A stretch of 64,000 nucleotides of DNA from Ecytonucleospora hepatopenaei (Eukaryota > Microsporidia > Enterocytozoonidae): the NCBI GenBank assembly GCA_026692725.1, contig JAPMUG010000002.1:303388-367387 (forward strand). The letters run 5' to 3'. The notes beneath the pieces were generated by a model. That model saw nothing but the letters and a program-made list of their open reading frames with translations, was not told the origin of the DNA and ran no database searches. Of this stretch, positions 1,067-61,876 are shown piece by piece; position 1 is the stretch's first letter, and each line of letters opens with the position of its first letter. The position numbers and the translations under genes were made by a program.

Positions 1067-2371
1067 TTAATTATTATCTATACGTTTTGAATAGAAATAT
1101 ACACATATTATAATACATAATAATATAAATGATACGATTGACATAATTATAATAATTACTTTTTTAGATTTCTTACTTTTTTCTTTTACTGTTTCTTCTT
1201 CTTCTATAGTTTCACCCTCAAATTCTTCTAAAAATATAAAATATGTTTTATTATTAGATGTTTTTAAATCAATATGAGTCTTATATATAAAATTATCATT
1301 ATTAGTATTGTTTGTATTATATATTATATTGGTATTAGCATTATTTATATCATTAATATCTATTTCATTAATATTATTTTTATTTATAAATTTAAAATGA
1401 TCTAATTTCTTAAAAAATAATCTATTTATAAATATAAAATCACTATTATATTCCTTTAGAAATGATGGATAAACATTATCCCTCAATACAATGTCATTTA
1501 TAAAATGAGAGTATTTCATAGGGATGTCAGTTTTATTTTCATCTTTTACTCTTTCTCTAACATAAAAAGACATATCATTATAATCATCATCATCAACAAA
1601 ATATACATTATCATTGATAATATCATCAATATTTAAATTATTAATATTTAAATTATTAATGTTTAAATCATTAATATTTAAATTATTTATATTTAAATCA
1701 TTTATATTTTTAATATTTATATCAGTATTTTTACTCATAATATTATTTTTACAATGTATATGAAATTTACACATCTTATTAATGTTAATACATATCAGTA
1801 TATTATTACCTAATGTTTCATTAGGTTTATTAGGATATTTAATTTCCATATTGCATGGTAAAACATTACATATTAAATATTCTTCATTAATATTGATATT
1901 TCTCTTTTCTAACATGCCATGTAATAATTTAACCTTAATATCCTTAGTAAGCTTAACATTATAAAATACATTACTATTATTAGTATTATTACAAATATTA
2001 GTATTATTAGTATTATTACAAATATTAGTATTATTACTATTATTACATATATTTATATTACTACTATGTATTTTTATAATACTACCCTTACTTATACTAT
2101 AATCATATGTATATTTAATAAGTAAATCTTCATTATGTGCAGTATAATTTAAATTATTCTGTATAGATGGATAATAAGGAATAACAAAGTATTTAATATC
2201 ACTGATATTACAATCATCTGGTATAATCTGATCATATAATATCTTATATTCACCAAAAAAATCAACAAATACGTCATTATCAGCAATACCAATGGTATTT
2301 TTATTAAATTTTATAATATTAGCAAATATACATAATATATTAAAAATACTAAATACAAATAAATATAACAT
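1067..2371 (-). CDS. predicted type I membrane protein, family member A (Asn-rich)
   Basis: 434 residues. An N-terminal signal-like helix (about 1-22) and a C-terminal transmembrane helix (about 403-425), preceded by an acidic stretch and followed by a short basic tail, predict a surface or secretory protein with a large luminal domain. It shares short blocks with the genes at 23195 and 52691: a KYF-x-IP-x-Y block, a K-G-T/S-x-I block, and an L-x-D-x-KVK block followed by a conserved Cys-Val/Asn-Val. Poly-Asn tracts (repeats of NNTNIC and NLNIND types) interrupt it. I do not recognise the family. No CCC motif lies close upstream, unlike member B. A function at the spore or parasite surface is inference only. 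Confidence 0.75.
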   Translation of the reverse strand: MLYLFVFSIFNILCIFANIIKFNKNTIGIADNDVFVDFFGEYKILYDQIIPDDCNISDIKYFVIPYYPSIQNNLNYTAHNEDLLIKYTYDYSISKGSIIKIHSSNINICNNSNNTNICNNTNNTNICNNTNNSNVFYNVKLTKDIKVKLLHGMLEKRNININEEYLICNVLPCNMEIKYPNKPNETLGNNILICININKMCKFHIHCKNNIMSKNTDINIKNINDLNINNLNINDLNINNLNINNLNIDDIINDNVYFVDDDDYNDMSFYVRERVKDENKTDIPMKYSHFINDIVLRDNVYPSFLKEYNSDFIFINRLFFKKLDHFKFINKNNINEIDINDINNANTNIIYNTNNTNNDNFIYKTHIDLKTSNNKTYFIFLEEFEGETIEEEETVKEKSKKSKKVIIIIMSIVSFILLCIIICVYFYSKRIDNN

Positions 2372-2612
2372 ATTAAAATAAATTAATATTTATAGTTGTA
2401 ATATACTACGTATTATAATCTATACTTATAATATACTTATAATATACTTATAATCTATACTATTATAATCTATACTATTATATAATATACTACTTATTAT
2501 ACTTTACAATTTATAACTTATAATATTTTAAGGGTTATATATTAAATTTTATATTAATTTATTTATAATAATATATATAAATAACATAATCAGTATAATA
2601 CTATATATAATA
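2372..2612. other. AT-rich intergenic spacer with short direct repeats
   Basis: Simple AT-rich DNA between two minus-strand genes. It contains several copies of a TATACTTATAA-like unit at about 2420-2510. A single CCC (as GGG on the plus strand, near 2530) lies about 160 bp upstream of the ATG at 2371. No RNA gene or conserved ORF is visible. Confidence 0.5.
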
Positions 2613-3371
2613 CTATATATTACATTTAGTATTACATTTAGTATTACATTCCTTATGTCTCTTACTATTTTCTGATATTATCCCACATATATCACACTCA
2701 TAATATTTATTAGGGTTAATTTCATATAGTTGATCAGAAAAAGATAATAGACATTTCTTAGTAAAATATAACTTACCATTAAATATATTATTACATTTAT
2801 TATTATCTAATATATTATTATTACATTTATTATTATTTAAAACATTACTGTTATTTATATTATTATCTAATATATTAGTATTACTGTTATTTATATTATT
2901 ATTTACTGTTTGTAACCATCCCTGTTTAATAAAAAACTTAACTGACGTATAATCATCAATAGGTTCATTCTTAGCTATCTGCATGAATATCTTATGAAAT
3001 GCTTCAGTCCTTTTATATGTCCATGGATATATAATTTTATATTTGTTACTATTATATGTATTTAATATATTACTGTTATTTATACTATTATATGTATTTA
3101 ATATATTACTGTTATTTATACTATTAGATATGTTACTATTAGATATATTATCTATTAAATATATTTCATTAGTATTAGGCCATTGTATTGCTTTATATTC
3201 TATCTTTTCTAAATATTCATTAATATCTTTAATACATATATTACTATTATATATAACACCATTAGATAATAACATATGTATATTATTATATAGATTATTA
3301 GATATATTAGATATATTAGTATTATTAGGATTATTGTTTATATTATTTATATTGTTTATATTGTTAATCAT
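2613..3371 (-). CDS. NSE1-like protein (SMC5/6 complex candidate)
   Basis: 252 residues. After an Asn-rich leader the protein has a short helical region, a wing-like segment with the order helix-GWLQ-insert-GKLYFTKKCLLSF, and a C-terminal CDICG plus Cys-x3-Cys-x3-Cys cluster. This order (winged helix, 'G-x-Y/L-x-x-T/K-R/K-x-L' strand, then a zinc-binding CxxC) resembles NSE1, the RING-like subunit of the SMC5/6 DNA-repair complex, but the zinc module here is short. Asn inserts of the NNSNIL type separate the blocks. The call rests on overall layout, so it is tentative; a generic zinc-ribbon protein is the alternative. The antisense frame at 3043-3417 is a shadow. Confidence 0.45.
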   Translation of the reverse strand: MINNINNINNINNNPNNTNISNISNNLYNNIHMLLSNGVIYNSNICIKDINEYLEKIEYKAIQWPNTNEIYLIDNISNSNISNSINNSNILNTYNSINNSNILNTYNSNKYKIIYPWTYKRTEAFHKIFMQIAKNEPIDDYTSVKFFIKQGWLQTVNNNINNSNTNILDNNINNSNVLNNNKCNNNILDNNKCNNIFNGKLYFTKKCLLSFSDQLYEINPNKYYECDICGIISENSKRHKECNTKCNTKCNI

Positions 3372-3539
3372 TTATATAAATAATATACCCATAAAAGAAA
3401 ATAAAAAAATAAAATAAAATAAAAAATATAATAAAATATTATATATAAAGTATAAAATAAAAGAAAATAATAAAATATAATAAAATATAACACATATTAG
3501 TAATACAATATAATAATATATAATATAATAATATAATAT

Positions 3540-5339
3540 ATGTCTTCTAATAATATATTTTCTAATAACAATATAATACATAATGATATTAAATCTATAT
3601 TACATGATAACAATTATATCAATATGACTGACATACAGTATAATACATTAAATGATAAGTCACACTATATGGGTGATAGGCTGATACATGCACCAACAGG
3701 GAGTGGTAAGACATTATGTTATGTAATACCAATAATAAATTATATATATAACAGTAATATATGTAATAATAGTAAAATATGTAATAACAGTAATATATAT
3801 AACAGTAATATATGTAATAACAGTAATACTAATATATATAACAATAATACTAATATATGTAATATATATAATTATACTGCTATAATTATAATACCTACAC
3901 GTGAATTAGCAATACAGATTAATAATATATTTAATATGTTTAATATAAATACAACAATATTAATAGGTGGTAATAATACTAATACTAATATATGTAATAC
4001 TAATATATATACTAATACTAATATATATAATAATACTAATATATTAATATCAACACCAGGTAAATTATTATCAATAATAAACAATAATACTAATATATAT
4101 AATAATATATGTAATAATATAAACAATAATATATGTAATTATACTAAATATATTATATTTGATGAAGCTGATAAACTACTCTCTAATGATTTCTATTCTA
4201 GTTATGTTACCATCACTAATAAAATATATAATAAACACAGTATAATACAATATTATAGTGCAACTATTAATGATGATATAATACATAAGATAAATATAAC
4301 AATAAAGAAGAATATAGATATAATACATAATAATATATTAAATAATGATAATATATTAAATAATAATAGTAATAATGATAATACATTAAATAATGATAAT
4401 AATAGTAATATATTAAATTATAATAATATATTACCTAATAATCTTATTATCAATTATATTTATATTAATAATGCTATTGATAAATTATATATTGTTAATG
4501 ATATTATTAATAAATATAATAAAGTAATAATATTTTATAATACATGTGCAGAGGTAGAATATTTTTATAATTATTATAATAATAACAGTAATATATTAAA
4601 TATATTATATAATGATAATAACAGTAATATATTAAATATATCAAATAATGATAATAACAATTTATTCTTACATGGTAAATTAGACCAATCTATCAGATCT
4701 AACACTTATAACACTCTTATGCATAGTGACTCATATACTCTCCATGCCACTGATGTGTGTGCCAGGGGATATGACTTTAAGGGAGTGGATGCAGTGGTGC
4801 ACTTTGACGTGGCCAAGGAACCTGCTACTCTCATACACCGCAGCGGCAGGACAGGGAGAAATGGTGCAGGTGGTATAAGCATAATACTGCTAATGAAGAA
4901 TGAACATGCATATGTTAAGTATATGAATATAGCATATGATAAGATAGAGATGGTAAATAAGACAGAGGAATATTACAGTAATATAAATAACAGTAATATA
5001 AATATAAATTTATATAACAGTAATATATCAAATAATACTAATATATGTAATATAAATAAAATAAATAACAGTAATGTATGTAATATAAATAAAATAAATA
5101 ACAGTAAAGCTTTTGTTAGTTATATTAGATCATATAAAGAACATATACTTAATTATATCTTGAATTATAAAGAATTAGACATGAATGACATAATACAATT
5201 ATATAACTTAAAACATATACCACCTATGGTAGATTATAGTAAGAGTAAAGGTAGATTTAAGAAAGAAAGCAGTAATATTAAAAATAGGAAGAATAATAGT
5301 AGGAATAACACTTATAAAAATAAAAAGAATAAAAAATAA
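3540..5339 (+). CDS. SPB4: DEAD-box RNA helicase, SPB4/DDX55-like
   Basis: 599 residues with the helicase motifs in order: Q motif around Gln33, motif I APTGSGKT (51-58), Ia PTREL, Ib TPGK, motif II DEAD, motif III SAT, and HRSGRTGRNG (motif VI) at 4843-4863. The C-terminal extension contains a KAFVSYIRSYKEH block, as in SPB4/DDX55, the helicase needed for 60S subunit maturation, and ends in a basic tail. HAS1/DDX18 is the nearest alternative. Long Asn-rich inserts (repeats of NNSNI) lie between motifs but never inside them. Motifs V-VI (about 4740-4870) are in conspicuously GC-richer DNA than the rest. The start is the first ATG, in an AT-rich leader without a CCC motif. Confidence 0.75.
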   Translation: MSSNNIFSNNNIIHNDIKSILHDNNYINMTDIQYNTLNDKSHYMGDRLIHAPTGSGKTLCYVIPIINYIYNSNICNNSKICNNSNIYNSNICNNSNTNIYNNNTNICNIYNYTAIIIIPTRELAIQINNIFNMFNINTTILIGGNNTNTNICNTNIYTNTNIYNNTNILISTPGKLLSIINNNTNIYNNICNNINNNICNYTKYIIFDEADKLLSNDFYSSYVTITNKIYNKHSIIQYYSATINDDIIHKINITIKKNIDIIHNNILNNDNILNNNSNNDNTLNNDNNSNILNYNNILPNNLIINYIYINNAIDKLYIVNDIINKYNKVIIFYNTCAEVEYFYNYYNNNSNILNILYNDNNSNILNISNNDNNNLFLHGKLDQSIRSNTYNTLMHSDSYTLHATDVCARGYDFKGVDAVVHFDVAKEPATLIHRSGRTGRNGAGGISIILLMKNEHAYVKYMNIAYDKIEMVNKTEEYYSNINNSNININLYNSNISNNTNICNINKINNSNVCNINKINNSKAFVSYIRSYKEHILNYILNYKELDMNDIIQLYNLKHIPPMVDYSKSKGRFKKESSNIKNRKNNSRNNTYKNKKNKK

Positions 5340-5494
5340 ATTATTACCCATATTTATAACCATATATTGGTATATTATAGTATAATTTATTTATAACAAT
5401 ATATTAGTATATTTATAGTATAATAGTATAATTTATTTATAACAATATATTAGTATATTTATATCAAATAATAAACAATAAACAATAGTATTTT

Positions 5495-6367
5495 ATGAAT
5501 AGATTTGTTAGAAACTCCTTTCTTATCAAACAAGTCAAGTCCAGAAGGAAATACACCCTACCATCCAACTACAAGGTCATTTTTGAAGCTGACATAAATG
5601 GGTGCATGCAGAGGATAGAGGCATACAAGGGTGAGTCAATCCTACTGACAGGCAGCAATGGGGCAGGAAAGACACAGTTGCTATTAAGCTTATTTAATGA
5701 TTATAAGGCACAGGTAATATTAGAAGATTTAAGCAATATAAATAACAGTAATATAACATATAATGATAATATAAATAACAGTAATATAACAAATAATGAT
5801 AACAATATAAATAACAGTAATATAACATATAATACTAATACTATTAACACTATTTTATTAACACATGATGAATTTCTATCTGTTATATCATTTTTAGACC
5901 AAGAACATAATATAATGCCAGGTACAATATATGATAATTTATTTATAAATAACAATATATCAAATACTAATATAAGTAATACCAATAATACCAATAATAC
6001 TAATATATTAAATAATATTTATATTAAATATCCTATATTATATAATAAATTACATAAATATATTACTGGTAACTATTACTTCTATAATGATACTACTCCA
6101 TACCATATTAAGAAAGACATATGCTTATTACGTGCATTATACCTAGCAGAGCATAGAGACATATTACTGTTAGATGGAGTGGATATAGAATATGTAGAGG
6201 AGATATTAAAGAGTAATAGAGATAAGGTAATATTAATGGTAATATCAAATAGTAGTAATACAAATACAAATATATTATATAATGATAATAACAGTAATAT
6301 ATTATATAATGATAATAATATATATAATTTATTTACTAAAACATATAACATAAAGAATAAAGAATAA
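5495..6367 (+). CDS. stand-alone, degenerate ABC-type ATPase domain
   Basis: 290 residues, a single nucleotide-binding domain with no membrane segments. Walker A GSNGAGKT lies at 53-60, a Q-loop-like LDQEHNIMPGTIYDNL follows, then an ICLLRALY helix and Walker B DILLLDG. The ABC signature LSGGQ cannot be found where expected, and the residue after the Walker B Asp is Gly instead of the catalytic Glu, so hydrolysis may be weak or absent. The Q-loop style (PGTIYDNL) resembles exporter-type ABC domains. Two Asn-rich inserts sit between Walker A and the Q loop and after it. No transporter half is adjacent. It may be a regulatory or partner ATPase; function unknown. Confidence 0.65.
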   Translation: MNRFVRNSFLIKQVKSRRKYTLPSNYKVIFEADINGCMQRIEAYKGESILLTGSNGAGKTQLLLSLFNDYKAQVILEDLSNINNSNITYNDNINNSNITNNDNNINNSNITYNTNTINTILLTHDEFLSVISFLDQEHNIMPGTIYDNLFINNNISNTNISNTNNTNNTNILNNIYIKYPILYNKLHKYITGNYYFYNDTTPYHIKKDICLLRALYLAEHRDILLLDGVDIEYVEEILKSNRDKVILMVISNSSNTNTNILYNDNNSNILYNDNNIYNLFTKTYNIKNKE

Positions 6368-6549
6368 AGAATAAAATAATTTTATAAAAATTTTAACCAT
6401 TTATTATAATTTATATTATATAGTTATAGTTATATTTATAGTATTATATTATATTTATATATTATATTTACATTATATACTATTTATTATCGTATTCTTT
6501 TAAATTATAGTATTATATTGTATTCTTTTAAATTATAGTATTCTTTTAG

Positions 6550-9500
6550 ATGACAGATGATTATGCCATTGATAAAATTGAATTTAAGCTTATTACTGAC
6601 GGTGACATAAATAAAATGGCGGTGGTGGACATAAGCAACAAGCTCATCCACGACGTAGAGAGCAGGAAGCCCTTGGCTGGGGCGTGCTGGACCTGCGCCT
6701 GGGCGTGTCCACGGCAGACAACACGTGCCAGACCTGCAAGGGAGGGATGGCAGAGTGTCCTGGCCACTGGGGCAGAATTAAGCTTACCCTTCCACTATTC
6801 CATGTGTCACTAATAAAAGAAACAATGTTAGTCTTATCATGTATATGTAAGAAATGTTCATCAATATTACTGGATAAGAATATAAATAATAATAATTTAT
6901 ATAGTAATATAAATAATGATAATAATACTAATTTATACAATAATATAAATAATGATAATAATTTATATAGTAATGAATATATTAATAATATTAGAGAATT
7001 ATGTAAAAAACAAAAATATTGTTATAAATGTAAAAGTATACAAGGATCAATAAAAAAAGGTAATGGATTTAAAATATTTCATTATTATAAAAATACAACA
7101 ATTAATAGTAATAATAACAATTTATCAAATAATAATAATAACAATATATTAAATAATACATCAAATAATAATACATCAAATAATACTAACAATATGATAA
7201 CTGATGAATTAAATCCTCTTACTGTATTAAATCTTTTTAATAATATTTCTGATGATGACAAATTGCTATTAGGTGCTACCAACTGCATTAGCTACTTGAT
7301 ACAGACTCTACTGGTACCGCCCAGCTGCATACGTCCCAGCGTAGACATGAAGGAAGAGGGATTTAATGAGGATGATCTGACGGTCAAACTGAGTGAAATA
7401 GTAAATTGCAACAATCTGCTGGAGGAGAGTATACGAAAGGGAGCATCACTAAATAGCATATCAGATGACTGGGACTACTTGAACATACAGGTGGCAACAT
7501 ACATAAATGCAGATTTACCAGGCATAATTACATCTATCAATAGTAACACTTCTAGTAACACTTCTAATAGTAAAGGGAAAATAAGATCATTGACACATCG
7601 TATTAAAGGAAAGCAAGGAAGGTTCCGTATGAATTTAAGTGGTAAAAGAGTGGATTTCAGTGGTAGAACAGTGATATCACCCGATCCAAACCTATCAGTA
7701 GAGGAGGTGGGGATACCAATGGAAATATGTAGAGAGCTAACAGTACCAGAAAAGGTAAATAGGTATAATAGGGAATATTTACAAAGGATAGTAGATGAGG
7801 ATAGAGCAAATTACATAATTAGAGAAAAAAATACAACTACTACTAATAATACTAATAATATTTTAAACAGTAATATTTCAAATAATACTAATAATATTTT
7901 AAACACTAATATTTCTAATAATACTAATAATATTTTAAACAATAACACTAATATTTCAAATAATACTAATAATAACAAATTTAAAATATTCCTTAAGTAT
8001 GCTAAAAGTCATAAAGTAAGATTACTAAGAATTGGTGATATTGTGGAAAGACACCTCATGGATGGTGATACTGTCCTCTTCAACAGACAGCCATCCCTCC
8101 ACCGCATGAGCATCATGGCCCACCGTGTCAAGACCCACTCCCACCGCACCCTCCGCTTCAACGTGTCAGTCTGTGCCCCGTACAACGCAGACTTCGACGG
8201 AGACGAGATGAACATCCACGTGCCGCAAACCAAGGAAGCAGCAGCAGAGGCGCAGGAGCTGATGGGGGTGCGCCACAACATCCGCACAGTGAAAAGCGAC
8301 GAGCCCCTGATATCCCCCACCCAAGACATAATAACAGGGATGTATATGTTGACGCAGATAGATAAGTATTTTACAAGACAAGAGTATAATGATATAATAA
8401 TACATATAACTAACAGTAACAGTAATATATATAACAGTAATAATCTATATAACAGTAATATAATACCATCTATATCATATAATAATATTAATTTATATAC
8501 TGGTAAACAAATAGTAGAATATATATTATATAATATACCAATAGATAAGTTTATTAGTAAGAATAGAAAGAATGAGTTATTTATGATAGTGAAGAATAGA
8601 TATGTGTGTGGTACGATGGATAAGAATATAATAGGGGGAGAGAATAAAAATACAAGTATAATAGAATATATATTAAATAATACTAATACTGATATATTAA
8701 ATAATACTAATAATAATACTAATTTATATAATAATACTGATATATTAAATAACAATATATTAAATAATAATAACAATATATTAAATAATATATTAAATAA
8801 CAATATATTATTAAGTAATAAAGATATGTGTATTATGTTTATTAATAATATTAGTAAAATATCAGTCAGATACTTAATGGAAATAGGATTTAGTATAGGA
8901 TTGGATGATATAGAAATGACTAATAAAGTATTGGATAAAAAGAATATATTATATAATGATATAATAGATAATATATTAAATAATACTGATAGTACTGACA
9001 TATTAAATAATAGTAATATCACTACTTTACTTAATAAAGTTAGAGAAGAATGTGGTATATATTGTATCAATAATCTATCCAGGTATAATGCAGCAGTGGT
9101 AATGAGTGACTGTGGGAGTAAAGGAAGTAAAATAAATGTAGGGCAGATGGTAGCATGTGTGGGACAGCAGGTAGTACAGGGCAAGAGGATAAAAGGAGGG
9201 ATGGTAGGGAGGACATTACCACATTCAATGATATTATATAATAATAACATATATAATGATAATAACAGTAATATATTATATAATGATAATATACATAATG
9301 TTATTATTGATAATATCATATTTGGTGGATTTGTATATAACTCATTCTACAGTGGACTGAATGCACATGAATTCTTCTTCCACGCTGTGAGTGGGAGGGA
9401 AGGACTGGTGGACACGGCAGTAAAGACAGCTGAAACAGGATACATGCAGAGGAGACTGATGAAGTCATTAGAAGACTTGAGTGTGAAGTATGATGGAACA

Positions 9501-10832
9501 GTAAGGAATAGTCATAATAATATAATAAGTTATACATATGATAATATACATAACAATAATATATATGATAATATAAATAACAGTAATTTATATAACAGTA
9601 ATTTATATAATAATATATATAACAGTAAAATAGATAATAACAATAATTTATATAATATTGCTGCTGGTGCTATCACTGCCCAATCCATTGGTGAACCTGG
9701 CACCCAAATGACCCTTAAGACTTTCCACTTTGCTGGTGTTGCCTCCATGAACATCACACAGGGTGTCCCCCGCCTCAAGGAAATAATCAATGCCACTCCA
9801 TGCATATCTACCCCAGTAGTAAGCATAACAAACATAGCACATGAAGAAGCAATGCTACTGAGGAATAGCATAGAGAGGAAATATTTATATGAGATAATAG
9901 AAAAGATAGAATATAATATAAATACATATGATAATATATATAATAATTTATTATATGATAATATATTATATAATAATATAAACAGTAATATAAATAATAT
10001 ATTATATAATAACAGTAATATTTTATATAATAATATAAACAGTAATAATATAAACAGTAATAATAATCTATTCTATCATATTAAATTATATTTATTATAT
10101 AATAATATATATAATTATACTGATATATATAACACTATTATTAATAGTAGTATATTTATTGATCATAATATATTATATAATATTAACAATAATGTTATTG
10201 ATATTATATATAAATATAATACATATACATATAATAATATTAAAAACATGATATTAAATATAAAGGTAAAAGGATATGATAAAGTAAATAAAGTGATAAT
10301 AAAAGAAATAACTAATAGTAATAATACTAATAATAGTTATAATAATAAATTAAATAATAATAATTTAAATAATAATAATAGTAAGTATAATATGTTTATT
10401 AGTAGTAATGATAACTTATTAAATATTTTTAATAACTTATACTCTAATAACCATATCAATAGCATTATCACCAGCAACAGCATATTAGAGGTGTATCGGG
10501 TACTGGGCATAGAGGCAGGCAGGGCATGCATTGTCAGGGAAATCAAGGAGACCATGTCATCCCACGGCATTGAAATATCTGACAGACACATACAAATACT
10601 GGCTGACACCATGTGCAGCAGCGGAGAGGTGGCAGGCATCACCAGGCACGGGATGAAGAGCAAGGAGAAGAGCACCCTGATGCTGGCGTCCTTTGAGCAG
10701 TCATCAGACTTTCTGTTTAGTGCAGCAGTGGAGGAGAGGGTGAACAAGGTGAGAGGAGTAAGTGAGTGTGTGATATTAGGGAAGAGGATAAATATAGGGA
10801 CAGGGGAAGTAGAGATAATAACAAATATATAA
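6550..10832 (+). CDS. RPC1: RNA polymerase III largest subunit, with one apparent frameshift
   Basis: The catalytic subunit of Pol III (C160 in yeast). The N-terminal zinc region CQTC...CPGH, the clamp-core KGKQGRFRMNLSGKRVDFSGR block, PEKVNRYNR, the active-site NADFDGDEMNIH motif (8188-8223), the bridge-helix/trigger-loop block GEPGTQMTLKTFHFAG (9691-9738) and the C-terminal GITRHG block all match RPC1 better than RPA1 or RPB1. The first 44 residues are in the frame of ATG 6550; the rest is in another frame entered at a G4 run (6679-6682), where one missing G would join the two. Six or more Asn-rich inserts separate the conserved blocks. Conserved blocks are GC-richer than inserts. Whether the frameshift is a sequencing error, a mutation or recoding is open. 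Confidence 0.85.
6679..6682 (+). other. frameshift site in RPC1 (G4 homopolymer)
   Basis: Reading from ATG 6550 the frame gives ESRKPLAG and then departs from the family. Reading one base back (as if the run were G5) gives GVLDLRLGVS, which continues the expected RPC1 sequence into the zinc-binding CQTC. The site lacks an obvious slippery heptamer and downstream pseudoknot. Confidence 0.8.
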
Positions 10833-11326
10833 AACTAAACTGTTGTTAATATAATACTATTATTATAATAAATTTATTATTGAAATATAATGTTTATTAT
10901 AATATTTTATTTTATTATTAAAATATAATGTTTATTATAATATTTTATAACCCTAATAAAATAACAATAGAATAATATAAAATAAAATAACAATAGAATA
11001 ATATAATATAAAATAACAATAGAATAATATAATATAATATAACAATAGAATAATATAATATAAAATAATAAAACATATTTTATACTATAATAAAATAATA
11101 AAATAATATAATAATATAATAATATAATAATATAATAATATAATAATATAATAATATAATAATATAATAATATAATAATATAATAATATAATAATATAAT
11201 AATATAATAATATAATAATATAATAATATAATAATATAATAATATAATAATATAATAATATAATAATATAACAATAGAATAATATAATATAAAATAACAA
11301 TATAATAATATAATAATATTATCAGT
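10833..11326. repeat. AT-rich spacer with an octamer tandem repeat
   Basis: The spacer starts with a direct repeat of about 27 bp (10883-10909 and 10921-10947), then several copies of an AACAATAGAATAATATAAT-like unit (10965-11060). From about 11099 to 11270 it is a pure octamer array, unit ATAATATA, roughly 20 copies. The array translates as a YYYIIILL pattern in both strands, which explains long but meaningless ORFs there. No gene is supported. Confidence 0.85.
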
Positions 11327-12508
11327 ATGACTACTAATAACACTTTCTTTGATATTAACTATATGAGAGGCACTGATAGCCAGTTCAACAGACTAGTAAA
11401 GTGTTCTGACGAGTGCATTGAACAGCTCACCAGTGCACAGAAACTTAACTTCATAGACTTTATATTCCAAAGAAGCAAGCAAGACAAAGCCAGTCTCATA
11501 TGCAACTACAAGTGCGTAAGAGAGCTGAACTATTACAACTGCAAGTTCAAGGGCAGGTGGATATTTATGTATATATTGGGGTTCACAGAGATATTTAGTT
11601 CATTATGTGCATTAAGTAAGTTAGTGATAAATATAACATATATAAAGGAAATAAAGAAGAAATTATTATATAATACTAATAATAATATTTTAAAAAACAG
11701 TAATATTTTAAATAATACTAACAATAATATTTTATATAATAAAAATATATATTTATATAACAGTAATATACGTAATACTATTGCTATTGAATATATTATA
11801 CATTTTATTGCTATGTCACTTGCTTTCTTTAGTTCTTTTCTATTCCACCTACATGAAACTATCATAACCAGGAATATGGATTATTTTACTGCTATTTTTA
11901 GTATAGCTATGAATGCATGTGTAACAACACATAGAAATATAATAATATTATATTATAACATTATATTAAAAAATAATAATATTTTATATAATACTAATAA
12001 TATAAATAACAATATAAATAACACTAATATTTTATATAATACTAATAACAATATATATAATAATAATTTATTTTGTATATATATTCTATACTTCTGCATT
12101 AAATACCATATTGCTCTATTTGCCTTTACCTCTTTCTTTGCTTACCACGTGTATAGGATGGCTTATGTTGACTTCAACTATGTTTATAACATGACTGCGT
12201 GTGCTGTGCTCATCCTCATCATTCAGGCCAACTACTTTCTTACTGTCTACAACTACAGGGACAACAGGCTGAAGAGGAGGGTGGTCATCCTTACCAACTT
12301 GTCTATTGTCAGTGCACTTTTTGAACTGAGTGACTTTCCTCCTGTTTTCTACTTGCTTGACTCTCACTTTTTATGGCACGTGGGGTTGTTATTAAGCATA
12401 AAACCATTTTATAAATTTACATTTTATGAGGCAAAGCTATTTAGAAGGAAATATTTAGGTAAATATATAGGTAATAAAGAGAGAGTTAAGGTAATAAATA
12501 AAAAATAA
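11327..12508 (+). CDS. PER1: PER1/PGAP3-like GPI-anchor lipid remodelling protein
   Basis: 393 residues, polytopic. A Cys-containing luminal N-terminus precedes KGRWIFMYILGFTEIFSSL, then FHLHETIITRNMDYF (the family HTRD-type motif followed by Asp-Tyr) and FYLLDSHFLWH (the family LLDAHALWH motif, with two conserved His/Asp). These are hallmarks of the Per1-like hydrolase family, which removes or remodels fatty acids on GPI anchors in the ER. About seven membrane segments can be read. Two Asn-rich inserts lie in loops between helices. A classical signal peptide is not evident at this ATG. The gene is the last in the window with frequent Asn-rich inserts. GPI remodelling would support GPI-linked surface proteins of the parasite. 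Confidence 0.8.
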   Translation: MTTNNTFFDINYMRGTDSQFNRLVKCSDECIEQLTSAQKLNFIDFIFQRSKQDKASLICNYKCVRELNYYNCKFKGRWIFMYILGFTEIFSSLCALSKLVINITYIKEIKKKLLYNTNNNILKNSNILNNTNNNILYNKNIYLYNSNIRNTIAIEYIIHFIAMSLAFFSSFLFHLHETIITRNMDYFTAIFSIAMNACVTTHRNIIILYYNIILKNNNILYNTNNINNNINNTNILYNTNNNIYNNNLFCIYILYFCIKYHIALFAFTSFFAYHVYRMAYVDFNYVYNMTACAVLILIIQANYFLTVYNYRDNRLKRRVVILTNLSIVSALFELSDFPPVFYLLDSHFLWHVGLLLSIKPFYKFTFYEAKLFRRKYLGKYIGNKERVKVINKK

Positions 12509-12697
12509 AATAATAAATAAATATAAATTTATAATATATTTATAAAATATTTATAAAATATTTATAAAGTAACCCTTATAATATTTATATTTATATTTAT
12601 AATATATTTATAATATTTATAATATTTATAATATTTATATTTATAATATAATTATAATTTTGTTATATACAATATATTAATTTATAATTTATTTATT

Positions 12698-12841
12698 ATG
12701 AATAATAATTTTTTTAATCATAATAAAATGGTACTTGATATTTATAATGATAATAGTGATACATGTAAACAACTTATAAAATATTGGAATAAAAATTATG
12801 ATATAAATTGGAATGAATTAAAGAGGAAATATGATAAGTAA
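12698..12841 (+). CDS. possible small ORF (47 residues)
   Basis: An ATG-to-TAA frame with a non-repetitive composition (a KQLIKYWNKNY segment, then WNELKRKYDK), in the gap after PER1. No homology is recognised and the upstream CCC is far away (about 12576). Its mixed residues make it more gene-like than the surrounding simple DNA, but chance is possible. Confidence 0.3.
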   Translation: MNNNFFNHNKMVLDIYNDNSDTCKQLIKYWNKNYDINWNELKRKYDK

Positions 12842-13330
12842 CTTAAAAATATTATTAGTATATATATAATAAATTTATAATAATAAAATAAATTTATAAT
12901 AATATAATACAATTTATATAAAATATTATAATAATAATAAAATAATAAATATAATAGTATATTATTTTTTTTAATTTATTTAAAATGTTTCACACTGTAA
13001 TTAGTATATTATATTAACATATACTTAGTGGATGTGGATTATATCACAGTTGTAACAGAACTTTACATTAATATAATTCTTGACTATCTGCGATGGGTAA
13101 ATTTATAAAATTTTTTAAAAATACTTTTTTATTTTTTTAAATATTTATATATAATGTTATAATATACACTGATCAATACAATTAATGATACATATTATAA
13201 AGGATACTATAATTTATTTAAAATGATATGTTTATTGGTTCTATAACTATACATATTCTTATAAAAGATATATATTCTCTTAGAACAGGGTAAAAATTAT
13301 CATATTTTATAAATTTATTTTTGTTGCTAA
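12842..13330. other. intergenic spacer, possible structured RNA around 13010-13100
   Basis: Mostly simple AT-rich DNA. A stretch at about 13015-13100 is less repetitive and has more G and C than its flanks, containing a TGGATGTGGATTATATCAC segment and a GACTATCTGCGATGGG segment, and is followed by T-rich runs. It does not translate. It could be a small noncoding RNA, but no known family is recognised. This spacer also marks the change between the two compositional regimes. Confidence 0.3.
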
Positions 13331-13969
13331 TCATAATATTTTTATTATTATATACATAACTATAAATATACCTACTGACTTTCCTAGATATCCCCAGGTA
13401 TTCATTTTCTCTATTTCTACAAGGGTTTTATTGGCTTTGGTTGTTGCTGCTGTGTTTCTTTCTATGTCTGTCTTTGTTTTATCCACGACATTCTTGTCAT
13501 ATTCTAATGTTTTTGTAAACTTTCCTGTCATCTCCTCTAGTTTTTTACTGTTTTTATACATTTCTTCTTCAATTAGCATTTTATTATTTGTTAATTCATT
13601 TTTTGAATTGTTTGTTTTATTTTTAACATCTCTATTTATATTGTTACTGTTATTTTTATTGTTTTTTAATTTATTAAGTTCTTTAAAACTATTCATATTA
13701 TTTTTCTTTTTAAAAAATGAATCATATAATTCACTTTTTAAAGAATCATCCTTAACATTATCTAAAAATTCTTTTACTTGTTTAATAAGATTGTTTTTTG
13801 ATTCATCTGTTTCTAATTTGTTTAGTATACTTTTTAATATTTTTATGTTACATAAAATTGTAAATGCATCTTCTTCATCAAATTCAGGTAAATTGTTGTT
13901 TTTGTTTAATAAACTATAATTTTCTTCTAATAAAAGATTCATTTGTTTGATATTGTTGTTTACACGCAT
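13331..13969 (-). CDS. USE1-like SNARE, tail-anchored
   Basis: 212 residues. The C-terminus has a single transmembrane helix of about 18 residues and no luminal tail, preceded by a heptad-like SNARE region (about 130-190: MLIEEEMYKNSKKLEEM onward). A helical N-terminal domain and an Asn/Lys-rich linker precede it. The layout and the LIEEEM...LE/F...L spacing resemble USE1, the Qc-type SNARE for Golgi-to-ER retrograde transport; SEC20 or another divergent SNARE is possible. The start is ATG 13969. It is the first gene to the right of the compositional boundary and shows only a short Asn-rich linker. Confidence 0.55.
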   Translation of the reverse strand: MRVNNNIKQMNLLLEENYSLLNKNNNLPEFDEEDAFTILCNIKILKSILNKLETDESKNNLIKQVKEFLDNVKDDSLKSELYDSFFKKKNNMNSFKELNKLKNNKNNSNNINRDVKNKTNNSKNELTNNKMLIEEEMYKNSKKLEEMTGKFTKTLEYDKNVVDKTKTDIERNTAATTKANKTLVEIEKMNTWGYLGKSVGIFIVMYIIIKIL

Positions 13970-31436: not shown

Positions 31437-31826
31437 ATGAAAGTTAATGTTTTGGATTTGACCTTGGCGCAGGATTGCTCGTTTATTCTGTTTCAATATG
31501 TATCCATTTTAAAAAATGACAAGAACTTCAATAGAAAGGAAATATCTGGAAAGATTATTCCATTTTATGTATACTCTACTCTTTTTTGGATACCTTTTGT
31601 ATACACTTCTGTAATAACAATAAATGTATATTGGTTTTTGCTACTTATGGCCACAATACCTTTGATTGTTTTGTTTTTTGTTTTGCTTGCTCCAAAATAC
31701 AGAGAAACTAATCCAAATAATTTAGAAAAAAAGGTAATAACAAAAAATGATGATTTAAATGATAAAAAAGAGAACAATAATGACAAAATAAATAATGATG
31801 AAGTGATTAATATAAATATAAATTAA
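31437..31826 (+). CDS. small protein with two membrane helices
   Basis: 129 residues from the only in-frame ATG; the frame extends upstream through a TTG without support. Two adjacent hydrophobic segments (about residues 43-60 and 64-83) form a hairpin, followed by an Asn/Asp/Lys-rich tail. No family recognised. It ends 48 bp before the next membrane protein gene on the same strand. Confidence 0.6.
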   Translation: MKVNVLDLTLAQDCSFILFQYVSILKNDKNFNRKEISGKIIPFYVYSTLFWIPFVYTSVITINVYWFLLLMATIPLIVLFFVLLAPKYRETNPNNLEKKVITKNDDLNDKKENNNDKINNDEVINININ

Positions 31827-32968: not shown

Positions 32969-35900
32969 TTACTTTTTTTCACTTGATGATTCTTCCTTAT
33001 ATTCTGTGCTTTCATTTTCATAATTTGATACCGCATATGCATCATGTTTTTCACTGTACTGTCCTGATCCTACGCTATATGCATTATAATATGCATTGCC
33101 TGGTTTCATAGAAGCACTTCCTGCCTGTCCTGATCCCATGTATGAACCCAGACCCGAACCTGGCTGATACGCAGTTGTATTTTGGGTATAATAACCCTGA
33201 CTTCCTGCGCCCTGAAAAAAGGTCGACCCTCCAAAGGTACTACCCGGAGCATAGGAATTGCTTCCTGGGCTTGAAAACATTGCACCCGATCCTGGTGAAC
33301 TGTATAAAACACCACTGCCCGGTGTCATGTTAAATTCAGCAACTCTTGAAGCAACAACCTCAGCATGCTCATACTCAGGTGAAAATTCTCCACGGTCTTC
33401 CTGGATCTTCCCAATTATTTCATTTTCAACTACATCACTATCGCTGGTATATGCTGGAGAATTCAAGACAACTGAATTTGCTATTGTTGTTGTTTTTGTA
33501 ACGTTAAGAGTTGCTAACTTTTCTTTATCAAGCAAAAGTTGTACATTTCCAGTTCCAAGCGGTGCAATCTGTCCCATCATGATGTTTTCTGTTATTCCAT
33601 ATGACGGATCAGATTCTGCGTTTACCGCTGCCTCTAACAAAATATCGACTGTTTCCTCAAATGACGCTCTTTTAAGCGCACCTGCCTTTACTTCCCTATT
33701 CACACCGTGTCTGGTGATTCCTGCAGGATATCCGCAAACAGTCATTACATCTGCCAAAAGACCTATGTGTCTTAGATTAACATACGATCCATTTCCCTCA
33801 ATTACGGCACGCAATTCCGTTATAATTGTTTCTCTCAGTGCTTCTACACCCAATGTTTCATAAATAACATGTAGATCATTTGCTATGGTTTTGTATGCAT
33901 CTACGTTTTCATGTGATAAAATCTGTGAAAATGATACACCATCTGTTTGAAGATAAAAACTATTCTCATTAGCATCCAGTGAAGAAATATGGGCCTTTTT
34001 TATCCCATCAATACCCTGAACGTGTATAAACAAAATATTTTTTGAAACTGATTTAAAGTGCTCTAATGTATCGACTCCACTCTCTGAGAAATCATCCAAA
34101 ATCAGTCTTATTCTTATGATTAACTTTTCATCTGACATTGCCGTGCTTATTACATGTACTTTACGCATAAAATATCTGTTTATTTTTTCAACCACATCCT
34201 CGATTGTGATTCCTTTTCCTATCATTTGATATTTGTCTAGCGTAATCCTAAACAAAAATAAACTACACTTATCATATTCTATATCATCAGGCATTTCAAA
34301 ATATTCAGACACAAAATGTTTGTCTTCCTCCAGTACAGTGCTCATGACATTAGGATCATAAACAACTTGTAGCTTGCTGTATATGTCTTTAATTAGCAAG
34401 TACTCAATTTTATTTCTCATGTTTCTTGCTGTTTCCAGTGCTTGATTTTTCAAAAAGATTTTCATGCTTGGTGTTTTTATGTTTTTTGCTGTGTTGATAA
34501 TTTCATTGACCCTGGGAACACCCATTGTAACCGTTGAAGCAACACCAGCCAGGTGGAACGTATTGAGTGTCATCTGAGTTGCAGGCTCTCCCACGCTCTG
34601 CGCTGCGAGTGTTCCTACAGTTTCATTTGCATCCACCATTGCCCTACTAAATTTTATGCGTATTTCCTCAATAACCTTAAAAAATGCAACCCTGTTCAAA
34701 GTAAGCAAACACTTTCTAACATTTAACGAAAGTCTAAGGTAAAAGTTCCAAAGGGTGTTCTTGGTCTCAAGTTTCTCAATTTCTTCAAACACAGTCCAAG
34801 GACTAAGTGGAACATTTTTATGTGTATTTCTGTTTGTAACGTTTAAAATAATCCTTTCAATGTTAACAGGAGTGGTGTATGTCAAGACAACGCTGTTTTT
34901 TACCAATGAACTGTATGTTTTTTCTAAAAAATTCCATTCGGCGTCCATTCTTTTTTGTAGCTCCATATCACTTCTTAACATTTCTATTACCTTGTGGTCC
35001 AACAATTCTGATTGGATACCATATTTTTCCTTTTCTATAAACATATCAATATAGCATTCTTCTTTTTTAGGCTTTGGTAAATTCAATGTTTCCAAATATT
35101 TTGCATCAAACCCATCTTCACCATACAAAAATTGGTATATTTTACCAAACCCATTTCTTACAGATTTGTCTTCTTTTATAATAGCATCTTCCATGGCTTT
35201 TATCAGTCTTCTTTGTATGTAACCAGTTTCTGCTGTTTTAATTGCTGTGTCTATCAAACCTTCTCTTCCTCCCATGGCGTGAAAGTAAAATTCCTGTGGT
35301 GTCATTCCACTAAGGTATGAATTTGCAACAAATCCCCTGCTCTGTGCTGAAAAATCATATTTTAAATTGTGGGGCAAGCTTCTTTTTTCAAACCCGAATG
35401 GAATTCTCTTTCCCTCCACGTTTTGTTGTCCAACGCATGAAGTCATTTGTGCAATATTAATTTTGCTTCCCTTAGAACCTGCTTCTATCATAGCATTCAT
35501 ATTGTTGCACATGCTAATTTCACCATTATAATTTCTTGCTTTATTTAAAATAACATTAACCTTGGATTCAAAAGTAGCAGAAATGTCCAACCCTGGAGAT
35601 TTTTCCATTAATCCTGATTTGGCCTCTTTAATGACAGTGTCAACCTGTGAAATGGCGTTTCCTATGTTTGTCTTGCATTCTTCAATTATTGAGTTGCTGA
35701 CAATAGTGTCACCCACTCCAACCGTAAAAGTATTAATAAAATACATAAAGTGTCTTATAAGTTTCTGAACATTGTTTATAAGTTTGGTAGCAATAATTGT
35801 TCCATAATCGTTACATGCTATGTGAATAAGACCGCCTGCTACAAATGCCTTTTTGTTCAAAAATCCCCTAATAATTTTTCCATTTTGCACATAAACAGAA

Positions 35901-37597
35901 GAATTTTTTAAACAAATGCCCTCCGGTAAAATTGCACCCATCACAGACTTTCCAGACCACAAAGAAAACCCCTGGTTTTCAATCGTAGGATTTTCCATAA
36001 CGCCACTTACGACCTGTGCTGGTAAATCACATGCGAAAAGCAATCCCATTGTCTCTCCCTTTGTAAAAAAACAATTGTTAAGTGTAAAAAGTCTCACCCC
36101 TACCAAAGTGTCCTGTACAATTCCTATGACTGGCTTGTTAGACTGAGGTGAAATAATATTTTTGGTAACAGAAGCCAAATTCATGAGCTCGCTCTTAGCA
36201 TTGTATGACTGAGGCATATGAAGGTTCATTTCGTCACCGTCAAAATCGGCGTTATACGGCGTGGTTACTGACAAATTGAGCCTAAATGTTTTGTTTTTCA
36301 TAACTTTGGCCCTGTGTCCCATCATAGACATTTTGTGCAAGGACGGCTGACGATTAAAAAGAACAATGTCATCGTCCAAAATATGTCTTTCCACTATAAA
36401 CCCTTGCTCAAGTCTCAAATTAAACTTGTTGTATCTTAAGTCTATTCTTTGTCCATCATTCCTTATCACATAATTTGCCCCTGGATAATCATTGGGTCCT
36501 TTATTTACCAAATTTTGTAAAAAATTAACATTTGCTCTTGTCACTTTTTCAGGAAAAGTGTGGATCATTGCAATTGACAGAGGAACTCCGACCTGATCCA
36601 ATTCAAGACACGCGTCTGGTGAAATTACACTTCTTGCTGAAAAATCAACACGTTTACCCATCAAATTTCCTCTTACTCTTCCTTCTTTTCCTTTTAAACG
36701 CGCTGAAATGGACTTAATTGGTCTTCCTGACTTTTGCATTGCTATAGGTTGTCCTGCCATTTCATTGTTAATGAGTGTAGCCAAGTGAAATTGCAACAAT
36801 TGCTCATAATCCCTGACAATGTGCGCTGGAGCACCTTCCTGCTCGTATTTTTTAAGACACGCATTGCTTTTTACAATATCTGCATATTTATGTGTAATGT
36901 CATCCTCTGCCCTTAGTCCGTCTGTTAGGATACTTGGACGCATACATGGAGGTGCTACCAATAAAACTGTTAAAAGCATGTTTTCTGGTCTTGTGCTGTA
37001 AAATGAGCCTTTATTGAAACCAAGAATTTTCAAATCTTCGTCCTCGATTTTTCTAAATATATTATATACCTTTTCTCCATTTAGTATCATTTTACCGTCT
37101 TCATCGCTTCCTTTTACAAATGCGATTAAGTTTAGACCTTCTTTTTTTATGACTGGCTGTTTGTTGCAACAACCTATCTTTTCTCCATTTATGCCTTCGC
37201 TTGCACAAACCGTTTTTGTCTTTAAAGCGTTCCAAGCATCTTCTAAGCTCATTGCGGACTTTACCGCCTTATTATCTTTAATTTTAGAACAATAAAAACA
37301 TACACACTCTAAAAGTTTTTTTATTTTTGAAATATAACCTATATGGAACATTGGTTTACAAAGTTCTATGTGCCCAAAGTGACCGACGCAGTCAAACATA
37401 TTATTGTTGCACGTTAAGCAATTTAAATTTTTTTCAATTGTACCCATCCTTAAATCGATCAGCCCACTTTCTTTCGGCAAACCATTTTCAATTGATTCAG
37501 GGTGTATGACATGCACTACAGAACATTTTTTTATTTCCTCTGGAGAAAAAAGACCAAAATCTAATTCAACAATTTTCTTATTTTGTTCACCGAGCAT
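32969..37597 (-). CDS. RPB1: RNA polymerase II largest subunit with a non-heptad tail
   Basis: 1542 residues. N-terminal DFGLFSPEEIKKCSV, zinc cluster CLTC...CVGH, clamp KGKEGRVRGNLMGKRVDFSAR, the catalytic NADFDGDEMNLHMPQ (around residue 452), the trigger-loop block GEPATQMTLNTFHLAG and the C-terminal GITRHG are all RPB1-type. The tail (about residues 1422-1542) would be the CTD, but it has no YSPTSPS repeats; instead Gly/Ser/Tyr-rich sequence with SPGS-type units, ending in an acidic Lys/Glu stretch. CCC at 37605-37607 (minus strand) precedes the ATG by 7 bases. No Asn-rich inserts, unlike RPC1. Confidence 0.93.
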   Translation of the reverse strand: MLGEQNKKIVELDFGLFSPEEIKKCSVVHVIHPESIENGLPKESGLIDLRMGTIEKNLNCLTCNNNMFDCVGHFGHIELCKPMFHIGYISKIKKLLECVCFYCSKIKDNKAVKSAMSLEDAWNALKTKTVCASEGINGEKIGCCNKQPVIKKEGLNLIAFVKGSDEDGKMILNGEKVYNIFRKIEDEDLKILGFNKGSFYSTRPENMLLTVLLVAPPCMRPSILTDGLRAEDDITHKYADIVKSNACLKKYEQEGAPAHIVRDYEQLLQFHLATLINNEMAGQPIAMQKSGRPIKSISARLKGKEGRVRGNLMGKRVDFSARSVISPDACLELDQVGVPLSIAMIHTFPEKVTRANVNFLQNLVNKGPNDYPGANYVIRNDGQRIDLRYNKFNLRLEQGFIVERHILDDDIVLFNRQPSLHKMSMMGHRAKVMKNKTFRLNLSVTTPYNADFDGDEMNLHMPQSYNAKSELMNLASVTKNIISPQSNKPVIGIVQDTLVGVRLFTLNNCFFTKGETMGLLFACDLPAQVVSGVMENPTIENQGFSLWSGKSVMGAILPEGICLKNSSVYVQNGKIIRGFLNKKAFVAGGLIHIACNDYGTIIATKLINNVQKLIRHFMYFINTFTVGVGDTIVSNSIIEECKTNIGNAISQVDTVIKEAKSGLMEKSPGLDISATFESKVNVILNKARNYNGEISMCNNMNAMIEAGSKGSKINIAQMTSCVGQQNVEGKRIPFGFEKRSLPHNLKYDFSAQSRGFVANSYLSGMTPQEFYFHAMGGREGLIDTAIKTAETGYIQRRLIKAMEDAIIKEDKSVRNGFGKIYQFLYGEDGFDAKYLETLNLPKPKKEECYIDMFIEKEKYGIQSELLDHKVIEMLRSDMELQKRMDAEWNFLEKTYSSLVKNSVVLTYTTPVNIERIILNVTNRNTHKNVPLSPWTVFEEIEKLETKNTLWNFYLRLSLNVRKCLLTLNRVAFFKVIEEIRIKFSRAMVDANETVGTLAAQSVGEPATQMTLNTFHLAGVASTVTMGVPRVNEIINTAKNIKTPSMKIFLKNQALETARNMRNKIEYLLIKDIYSKLQVVYDPNVMSTVLEEDKHFVSEYFEMPDDIEYDKCSLFLFRITLDKYQMIGKGITIEDVVEKINRYFMRKVHVISTAMSDEKLIIRIRLILDDFSESGVDTLEHFKSVSKNILFIHVQGIDGIKKAHISSLDANENSFYLQTDGVSFSQILSHENVDAYKTIANDLHVIYETLGVEALRETIITELRAVIEGNGSYVNLRHIGLLADVMTVCGYPAGITRHGVNREVKAGALKRASFEETVDILLEAAVNAESDPSYGITENIMMGQIAPLGTGNVQLLLDKEKLATLNVTKTTTIANSVVLNSPAYTSDSDVVENEIIGKIQEDRGEFSPEYEHAEVVASRVAEFNMTPGSGVLYSSPGSGAMFSSPGSNSYAPGSTFGGSTFFQGAGSQGYYTQNTTAYQPGSGLGSYMGSGQAGSASMKPGNAYYNAYSVGSGQYSEKHDAYAVSNYENESTEYKEESSSEKK

Positions 37598-45547: not shown

Positions 45548-46726
45548 ATGGTTAGAGTCAAAATTTTAGTCAATGAAAATATAAAATTTGTATATAATCC
45601 AACACAAAACTTAATATGCGATATGATAAAAGATATAAAACAATTTATAATGGAAGTGTTTAATGTTGAGATTCATAAATTTTATTTAACAACTTTTGAT
45701 GGTTTCTTAATACATAACACTATGCCTATAAGCATTCTTAAAGAAGATGAAGTTTTATGTGTCAATTCTAAAGAGATTTCACACAAAAAAGAGTTACAGG
45801 AAAAAAACAAGTTTAAAATGAGTCGCAAACAAGAAATGAAAGATGTAATTTTACAAAATATTCTATCAAATGCATCAAAAATTAAAGATAGTACTGAATT
45901 TAAACAAGATGTATTGGATAATAAGGAAAAAGAAATATCAACCAAATTAGTACCAAACAAAAATTTTAAACATAAAGAAAATGCAATATCAAAAGAAGAA
46001 TTATCAATTAAAAGAAATATACCAGAAGATTTATCAACAAAAGAGCATCTTAAAAAAGTTTCATCAATAAAAGAAGATTTAAAAGAAGATAAAGAAGTAA
46101 AAAAACAAAAAATCTTCATTAATAACAAGAAAGAAAAAAACATTGAAAATGCAAACAATTTTATAAAACAAGATAAAGAACATATCAATAATAAAAGTAG
46201 AGAAAACGAACTTAATGATTTATTAAACATTTTAAATCAAGAAGTGGCACCTAAGCAAAATAATTTTCAAGAAATTTCTAATGTTAATGTAAATTCTAAT
46301 ACGGTTGATGGCAATAAAAACAATAGAAACACACCAATTGATAATAAAGTTAATAATATTAATGTAGATTTTAATAATAAAGAACTTAATAATAAAGAAC
46401 TTAATATTATTGAAAAGCCAGCGAATAAAAAAACAATCGTGCATGAAAATGTAAAAGAAAAAAACAAAACCATAGAAAAAGAAGTTTTAACCAAAAAACA
46501 AGCAAAAGGGAACAAAAAAGCACTAAAGCCATTTAAATACGAGGATTACAAGCATCTAATAGAAAATGATACCGTTGAAAAGGGTATTGATGTAACACAA
46601 GCAAAACTTACTAAGGAAATTATGGAGGAAATGTCACATCTCAAAGATTTAAAGAAAAAAGAACACAAAGAAAAACAAATTGAATCAATAGATATTAAAA
46701 AGTTGAAAGAAAAACAAAAACAGTAA
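45548..46726 (+). CDS. Lys/Asn-rich protein with a ubiquitin-like N-terminus
   Basis: 392 residues. The first 75 (VRVKILVNENIKFVYNP, IKQFIMEVFNVEIHKFYL, FDGFLIH, ILKEDEVLCV) alternate strands and one helix in the way of ubiquitin-like domains such as coilin's N-terminus. The remaining 320 residues are disordered, Lys/Glu/Asn-rich, and end in a helical basic segment (about 330-390). A coilin or nucleolar protein is possible; not recognised. Confidence 0.55.
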   Translation: MVRVKILVNENIKFVYNPTQNLICDMIKDIKQFIMEVFNVEIHKFYLTTFDGFLIHNTMPISILKEDEVLCVNSKEISHKKELQEKNKFKMSRKQEMKDVILQNILSNASKIKDSTEFKQDVLDNKEKEISTKLVPNKNFKHKENAISKEELSIKRNIPEDLSTKEHLKKVSSIKEDLKEDKEVKKQKIFINNKKEKNIENANNFIKQDKEHINNKSRENELNDLLNILNQEVAPKQNNFQEISNVNVNSNTVDGNKNNRNTPIDNKVNNINVDFNNKELNNKELNIIEKPANKKTIVHENVKEKNKTIEKEVLTKKQAKGNKKALKPFKYEDYKHLIENDTVEKGIDVTQAKLTKEIMEEMSHLKDLKKKEHKEKQIESIDIKKLKEKQKQ

Positions 46727-61497: not shown

Positions 61498-61500
61498 TTG

Positions 61501-61796: not shown

Positions 61797-61876
61797 AGCT
61801 AGTATTTACTAGTTAGTATTACTAGTATTTTAGGTAGTATTGCTAGTATCTTTAGTAAGCTATTGTAGTTCTTATA
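61797..61876. repeat. transition from minisatellite to telomeric repeat
   Basis: Degenerate TAGTATT and TAGTA units, containing fragments of the 30-bp unit (GTAAGCTATTG at about 61855-61865) mixed with the first TTAG units. Confidence 0.7.

Follow-up and report, generated by a model that had tools for sequence, protein, structure and literature searches.

The closest described systems are the asparagine (Asn) repeats of Plasmodium falciparum and the poly-Asn/Gln tracts of Dictyostelium, which are AAT-based, occur in many kinds of protein and belong to AT-rich genomes (PMC3749963, PMC5052046). In the available portions of these accounts, the P. falciparum repeats are ascribed to unequal crossover and replication slippage, with coding changes that keep the frame (PMC3749963, PMC5052046); indeed, 94% of coding indels there are multiples of three, and variants of short tandem repeats fall mostly in Asn tracts (PMC5052046), a further Plasmodium parallel being given in PMC5762703. 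Regional shifts in nucleotide usage are described in yeasts, where the codon usage of an introgressed block in Lachancea kluyveri departs from the rest of the genome (PMC7449078) and genes of the same class of non-adaptive nucleotide bias lie adjacent on chromosomes (PMC9246145). Here we describe a 64,000-nucleotide stretch (the window, G000:C6:303388-367387) of the microsporidian Ecytonucleospora hepatopenaei (EHP), whose right end is the end of its contig in an assembly of 3,094,744 bases and 13 contigs, and in which RPC1, the largest subunit of RNA polymerase III, and its neighbours carry long Asn-rich inserts. EHP is a parasite of shrimp. Crustaceans are given as the hosts in the part of PMC5857377 available, in agreement with infection of shrimp.

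The EHP tracts share with those of P. falciparum the AAT-based composition, the variety of proteins affected and the AT-rich genome. Unlike the P. falciparum repeats, which are found across families genome-wide, they are concentrated in islands of DNA with a spacer and codon signature of their own. The islands also differ from the L. kluyveri block, described in the available text as one large introgression favouring C/G-ending codons (PMC7449078), in comprising 45 clusters of repeat units, AT arrays and Asn inserts, with no donor shown, and from the yeast bias clusters, for which the accessible part of the account mentions neither protein inserts nor a spacer repeat signature (PMC9246145). 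Low-complexity lengthening is discussed for this family in a study of long DNA-damage-response proteins that includes Nucleospora; its main text does not use the word asparagine, and the portions available mention neither islands nor regional DNA composition (PMC12134460). Among the literature matches listed, no title or abstract describes such islands; an earlier description is possible, for example in the 2017 paper on the EHP genome by Wiredu Boakye et al. That a reduced genome should contain dispersed islands, distinct in spacer grammar and codon usage, was not expected. Whether Asn-rich inserts in AT-rich genomes reflect mutation or selection is a long-standing question, and a single genome in which insert-bearing and insert-free neighbours are separated by position provides an internal control, RPC1 and RPB1 being directly comparable. 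Location-dependent codon usage and protein length in EHP also bear on gene finding, dating and phylogeny.

The six open reading frames (ORFs) at 1067-12508 that the initial annotation had singled out for Asn-rich inserts do carry them: their Asn content is 14.2-27.0%, with 95-512 residues each inside Asn-rich windows (at least 7 Asn per 20 residues). Among the 22 ORFs starting at 15.8-44.4 kb, 20 contain 2.8-8.8% Asn, the exceptions being 31437 (14.0%) and 42785 (11.2%), and only three have any Asn-rich window (20-30 residues). The expectation that genes from 13.3 kb on would have none or almost none holds for RPB1, an Rpb2-type subunit and SPT16 (0 to at most 20 residues) but is slightly too strong, as six ORFs (13331, 14182, 31437, 45548, 50374 and 55830) have short tracts of 21-53 residues without island codon usage. 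The predicted contrast between RPC1 and RPB1 is borne out, RPB1 having no Asn-rich window. The names SPT16 and RPB1 are likewise upheld, and the gene at 18095, previously called RPA2, can be assigned only as Rpb2-type. Three Asn-rich genes outside the island (31437-31826, 45548-46726 and 55830-56459) have ordinary codon scores (-0.121, -0.103 and -0.120), and the island regime is thus not implied by Asn richness alone.

Island DNA is distinguished by its spacers and by its codons. We fetched 20 stretches (the 40 kb that precede the window; 12 taken at a fixed offset, of which 11 could be read; four dense clusters) and four flanks; L016, which reads N, and L006-L008, which overlap L005, were left out before counting, and L011, which holds rDNA, was excluded from spacer counts and model training. 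Spacer GC is 10.0% in islands (47 spacers, 13,463 bp) and 19.3% outside (93 spacers, 30,772 bp), and the relative abundances in island versus outside spacers are 0.74 versus 1.18 for AA and 1.32 versus 0.87 for TA. Spacer A/T runs of at least 6 are at 0.22 of the shuffled expectation in islands and at 1.81 outside. Codons outside the tracts shift in the same sense (island versus non-island fractions: AAG 0.49 versus 0.24, GAG 0.38 versus 0.18, ATA 0.65 versus 0.41, GTT 0.18 versus 0.46), and coding A/T runs of at least 5 outside tracts number 4.4 versus 17.0 per kb, or 0.89 versus 1.17 of synonymous shuffles. The codon score for island-like usage was trained on 31 genes chosen by tract fraction, which include at least three Asn-rich non-island window genes (31437, 45548 and 55830); 19 of the 31 score above +0.028, the non-island 99th percentile. 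Conserved island genes that bear no insert score high (S17e +0.271, L15e +0.181, L7Ae +0.089, RPB9-like +0.082), the 125 non-island genes reaching +0.056 at most. Distinct spacers together with a codon shift even in insert-free conserved genes argue that the cause is regional. High expression was rejected as the sole cause of the codon shift, given that non-island ribosomal genes score +0.015 and +0.041, against +0.089, +0.181 and +0.271 for those in islands; expression contributes but explains only part. In the window, the scores from the left-edge gene through ORF 14182 (-0.063, -0.052, +0.010, +0.103, +0.081, +0.144, +0.099, -0.005, -0.101) show island edges graded across one or two genes.

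The window island is not alone. Matches to two repeat units, AATAACAGTAATATA (unit 1) and AATAATACTAATATA (unit 2), were listed at 184 places (84 exact unit 1 matches and 100 of 120 exact unit 2 matches), and with 6-kb linking these fall into 45 clusters on 11 contigs, whereas uniform placement of the listed matches gives a mean of 130 clusters and a minimum of 116 in 500 draws. At least two of the listed matches are present in 31 of the 45 clusters; none of those listed lies on C3 or on C4, which may be masked, the one stretch sampled from it reading N. The inserts are thus not spread genome-wide over protein families, and adjacent genes outside the islands are insert-free. A two-state model (fourth-order, strand-symmetric), whose training set comprised four other islands and 13 non-island stretches, was applied to the held-out window; it calls the segment given in Table 1 and a weak one at 57528-58756 (score 74), which sits in a gene-poor stretch before the telomere. 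In leave-one-out tests no island is called in 12 of the 13 non-island stretches, the remaining one yielding 162 bp, and all four training islands are recovered, one as two pieces. Island segments measure about 12.1 kb in the window, 13.7 kb at C6:109.9-123.5k, 9.8 kb with a gap on C5, 7.8 kb on C7 and at least 6.8 kb on C2. The islands and their codon shift are the larger finding and lie beyond the reach of any one window.

Tandem arrays, taken as Tandem Repeats Finder (TRF) score at least 50, make up 64.9% of the spacers and 40.3% of the ORFs in islands, compared with 7.8% and 1.1% elsewhere; under single-base shuffles the corresponding values are 24% and 3.1% in islands and 2.4% and 0.2% elsewhere. 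With a stricter test (score at least 110, GC at most 13%), spacer coverage is 46.8% in islands and 4.3% elsewhere. When overlapping TRF rows are counted, the period is divisible by three for 574 of 603 in island ORFs and 54 of 196 in island spacers; for non-overlapping arrays the figures are 161 of 166 coding and 18 of 73 spacer arrays. Read in the sense phase, coding arrays have a median of 45% Asn, a mean hydropathy of -1.12 and stops in 1%; the remaining five frames read as hydrophobic, are interrupted by stops in 31-97% of arrays, or both, the most open of them having a hydropathy of +2.50. The Asn frame is therefore the sole reading that is both hydrophilic and nearly stop-free, and a filter on frame and hydropathy predicts the coupling to sense strand and phase without any strand-specific mechanism. 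The need for a process tied to transcription or mRNA, which the initial annotation had invoked, is thereby removed. Its statement that repeat slippage is not involved finds no support, as island spacers are full of AT arrays with periods unrelated to three that share the island dinucleotide signature. Selection on protein, which it had also proposed, stands as a filter, through the periods and the hydropathy, and not as a generator. Intergenic repeats do differ in type, as had been noted: GC is 6.8% in spacer arrays and 11.8% in coding arrays, and an open frame containing 30% Asn or more exists in only 5 of 73 spacer arrays. Since spacer arrays would seldom be usable as inserts, the inserts probably grow in place from Asn codons. 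The constraint on reading frame argues for inserts that are translated, as judged from sequence. The freedom from frame constraint expected of excised elements (introns, bypass elements or inteins) is not seen (sense stops in 1%, periods of 3n in 161 of 166).

These features are probably best explained by regional repeat expansion combined with purifying selection, producing Asn repeats like those of Plasmodium but confined to islands. Tens of islands in the EHP genome, of about 7-14 kb each in the five measured, would evolve under a different regime at the DNA level, one that, in spacers as in genes, expands tandem arrays, removes long A/T runs and favours alternating AT/TA. The signature itself is observed, and it may be the product of a local mutation or repair regime. 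Tandem duplication would expand AAT-based stretches of island genes at loops that differ in length between orthologues, and purifying selection would presumably remove frame-breaking changes and those read as hydrophobic sequence or with stops. Proteins that are conserved elsewhere along their length, such as RPC1, the Dicer-like protein and the RNA-dependent RNA polymerase (RdRP), would thereby come to carry Asn-rich inserts on the sense strand and in frame. Small conserved island proteins (S17e, L15e, L7Ae and RPB9-like) have island codon usage and no insert.

Several observations weigh against this explanation. A first-order spacer model alone already gives strict array coverage of 31.9% in islands and 0.0% elsewhere, leaving an excess of about 15 versus 4 points, so that most of the repeat coverage of spacers is accounted for by their richness in AT/TA. 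Outside tracts, silent sites have more GC in islands than elsewhere (0.296 versus 0.223, pooled) although island spacers are GC-poorer, which simple AT mutation bias does not predict; within tracts, silent-site GC is 0.093. Furthermore, two left-edge genes and the right-edge gene of the window bear tracts without the codon shift, L040:1-750 bears an Asn tract (0.24) where the model calls no island, a hydrophobic AT-only ORF (a doubtful gene) within an island at C7:224137 scores -0.073, and high scores occur outside called islands in a partial gene at C5:179502 (+0.074) and a Tc-type transposase on L039 (+0.079).

Comparison with relatives bears on whether the islands were inherited from elsewhere. 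In RPC1, EHP has 409 residues at the nine tract sites, compared with 196, 145 and 176 in P0002, P0003 and P0004, 140 in a partial Enterospora canceri sequence, 240 in Hepatospora, and 328 and 333 in two more distant species, where much of it is at one site. The EHP RdRP has 23 tracts with 942 residues; tract residues total 34 in its nearest relative, P0241 (1246 aa), and 41, 0 and 55 in three others. Alignment to orthologues, carried out for RPC1 and RdRP, places the inserts at positions that coincide with sites of length variation in relatives, where they are much shorter. An alternative, which we consider unlikely, is that the islands are remnants of a related lineage, acquired by old hybridisation or introgression, with its own dinucleotides, codon usage and Asn-rich proteins. 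Contiguous blocks with a distinct dinucleotide signature and codon usage are the type of signal used, in the available text, for the L. kluyveri introgression (PMC7449078), and the best relatives of EHP for RPC1 and RdRP reach about 60% identity on common columns while RPB1 has a 75% relative (P0122), with an EHP terminal branch of 0.69 for RPC1 versus 0.20 for RPB1. However, the RPC1 and RPB1 trees both put EHP in the same clade with Enterospora, with one sister each, tracts are sparse in the nearest relatives for RPC1 and RdRP (58 and 34 residues), and tens of scattered clusters with graded edges at the window block are less natural for introgression. Distances to outgroups were compared as a guide to possible faster evolution of the island proteins: for RPC1, EHP and P0002 both exceed P0003 and are about equally distant, and for RdRP, EHP lies at most slightly beyond P0241. 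More speculatively, and only tentatively, the genome may be viewed as two interleaved DNA regimes, each having a codon usage, spacer grammar and protein texture of its own, the islands being either remnants of a second lineage after ancient hybridisation or stable domains with a distinct mode of repair or recombination, so that position would re-texture essential genes.

That the inserts have been selected for a role in certain genes (RNA-related ones, for instance), or have spread via mRNA or cDNA, is most improbable, although the behaviour of the units at first suggests it. Exact AATAACAGTAATATA occurs 11 times in the window in sense phase 0, always in island genes, and is absent from the antisense strand, from the 2,583 bp of local spacers and from 13.3-61.4 kb; at up to two mismatches there are 43 sense, one antisense and one spacer match, and none in the remainder. 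When the window (as far as 61.4 kb) is taken together with 28 fetched loci, unit 1 is in sense phase 0 without exception (41 of 41 exact, 91 of 91 at up to one mismatch), and unit 2 is so in 36 of 40 exact matches and 106 of 114 at up to one mismatch, the rest lying in spacers and none antisense; a third sequence pattern matches at 2 places. The reported adherence of the units to sense strand and phase in every gene thus extends beyond the window, and the units are not equally frequent in antisense or spacer DNA. AAT-rich Asn tracts number 175 in 39 genes or fragments (7049 codons; Asn 41.8%, AAT 35.9%). Before AGT, AAC is used in 168 of 285 cases within tracts and in 26 of 59 in non-island genes; within tracts its share does not exceed 0.21 ahead of the rest of the 16 commonest following codons. 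There are 30 exact 10-codon words common to different genes, where a first-order model predicts 0.55 (maximum 3) and a second-order model 3.5 (maximum 9), and genes in the sampled islands, whose clusters were chosen by unit count or density, include RdRP, a Dicer-like protein, RPC1 and an RNA helicase. However, inserts are also present in neighbours of other kinds (Per1, TP-methylase, CDC20-like, Sel1 repeat), the spacers share the regime, the frame bias follows from the hydropathy and stops of the alternative frames, and shared 4-codon words fall below every model (604 versus 733-985), a deficit that fits tandem copying. Shared peptides show a modest excess of codon identity (0.839 versus 0.804 expected), with 913 fully identical pairs versus 546 expected (repeated copies being counted many times), and sequence exchange between tracts is possible on these patterns. 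Local gene conversion was rejected for lack of a within-locus excess of shared words (36.9 versus 38.4 per million).

Contamination or chimeric assembly is unlikely for RPC1 because there are four equal-scoring small-subunit rRNA genes, three Rpb1-family loci with a single RPC1, and a near-identical RPC1 in a second EHP assembly.

Table 1. Island segment, genes and spacer array of the window, with RPB1 for contrast.
Feature	Coordinates	Strand	Remarks
Island (two-state DNA model, window never in training)	1282..13377	.	segment score 1360
ORF with Asn-rich tracts, weak Psg1 match, left edge	1067..2371	-	codon score -0.052, not island-like
ORF with Asn-rich tracts, no Pfam match	2613..3371	-	codon score +0.010
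SPB4-like DEAD-box helicase	3540..5339	+	Asn-rich tracts between conserved motifs; Pfam
P-loop ATPase-like ORF (weak matches), three Asn-rich tracts	5495..6367	+	Pfam
RPC1 (RNA polymerase III largest subunit)	6550..10832	+	nine tracts, 409 residues
Spacer tandem array, 8-bp unit TAATAATA, ~45 copies	10955..11318	.	
Per1-like membrane protein, two Asn-rich tracts	11327..12508	+	Pfam
Right-edge ORF, short Asn-rich tract	13331..13969	-	codon score -0.005 (transition)
RPB1, RPC1 homologue outside island	32969..37597	-	no Asn-rich window, ordinary codon usage; contrast case

The RPC1 ORF is 100% identical to EHP RPO31. In the window assembly it consists of ORF 6684-10832 and, read in a different frame, an N-terminal portion from 6550, and in the second EHP assembly it is one continuous protein of 1426 aa; the frame break at 6550-6813 is probably an assembly indel. 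The two versions of this gene, the one compared between the assemblies, differ over the shared 1382 residues by a single residue, an Asn codon within a tract. A third Rpb1-family locus, on C1, has 8% Asn over the 1016 residues fetched. The left-edge gene of the window, a putative VMA16 in the initial annotation, matches ATP-synt_C and is plausibly a predicted V-ATPase proteolipid.

Genes in the dense clusters encode RdRP (2629 aa), a Dicer-like RNase III (1890 aa), a TP-methylase and a Sel1 protein, and a CDC20-like gene is found on C13. The RdRP (L026:444-8333) and Dicer-like (L027:2520-8192) genes show that RNA interference components exist, both inside islands. Unit matches at C5:208253-209003 and C9:190944-191694 have identical spacings (246 and 504 bp) on both contigs, which suggests a segmental duplication, and common unit matches lie about 4-6 kb from the starts of C7, C9 and C11. 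Tc/mariner-type transposase ORFs with a fairly high island-like codon score adjoin the C2 island (L039:305-1205). As island landmarks, tRNA genes follow no rule: tRNA-Thr lies by the window island and tRNA-Leu by the RdRP gene, none being found in the other 12 island loci scanned, and non-island DNA has four tRNA genes. Matches to viral contigs were obtained at 15 loci (26-45%). The contig end at the window consists of TTAG/TTTAG repeats, and 4-mer TTAG telomeres are reported for the same clade in the available part of PMC13174016; adjoining this telomere, at 61498-61798, is a 30-bp unit in about 10 perfect copies.

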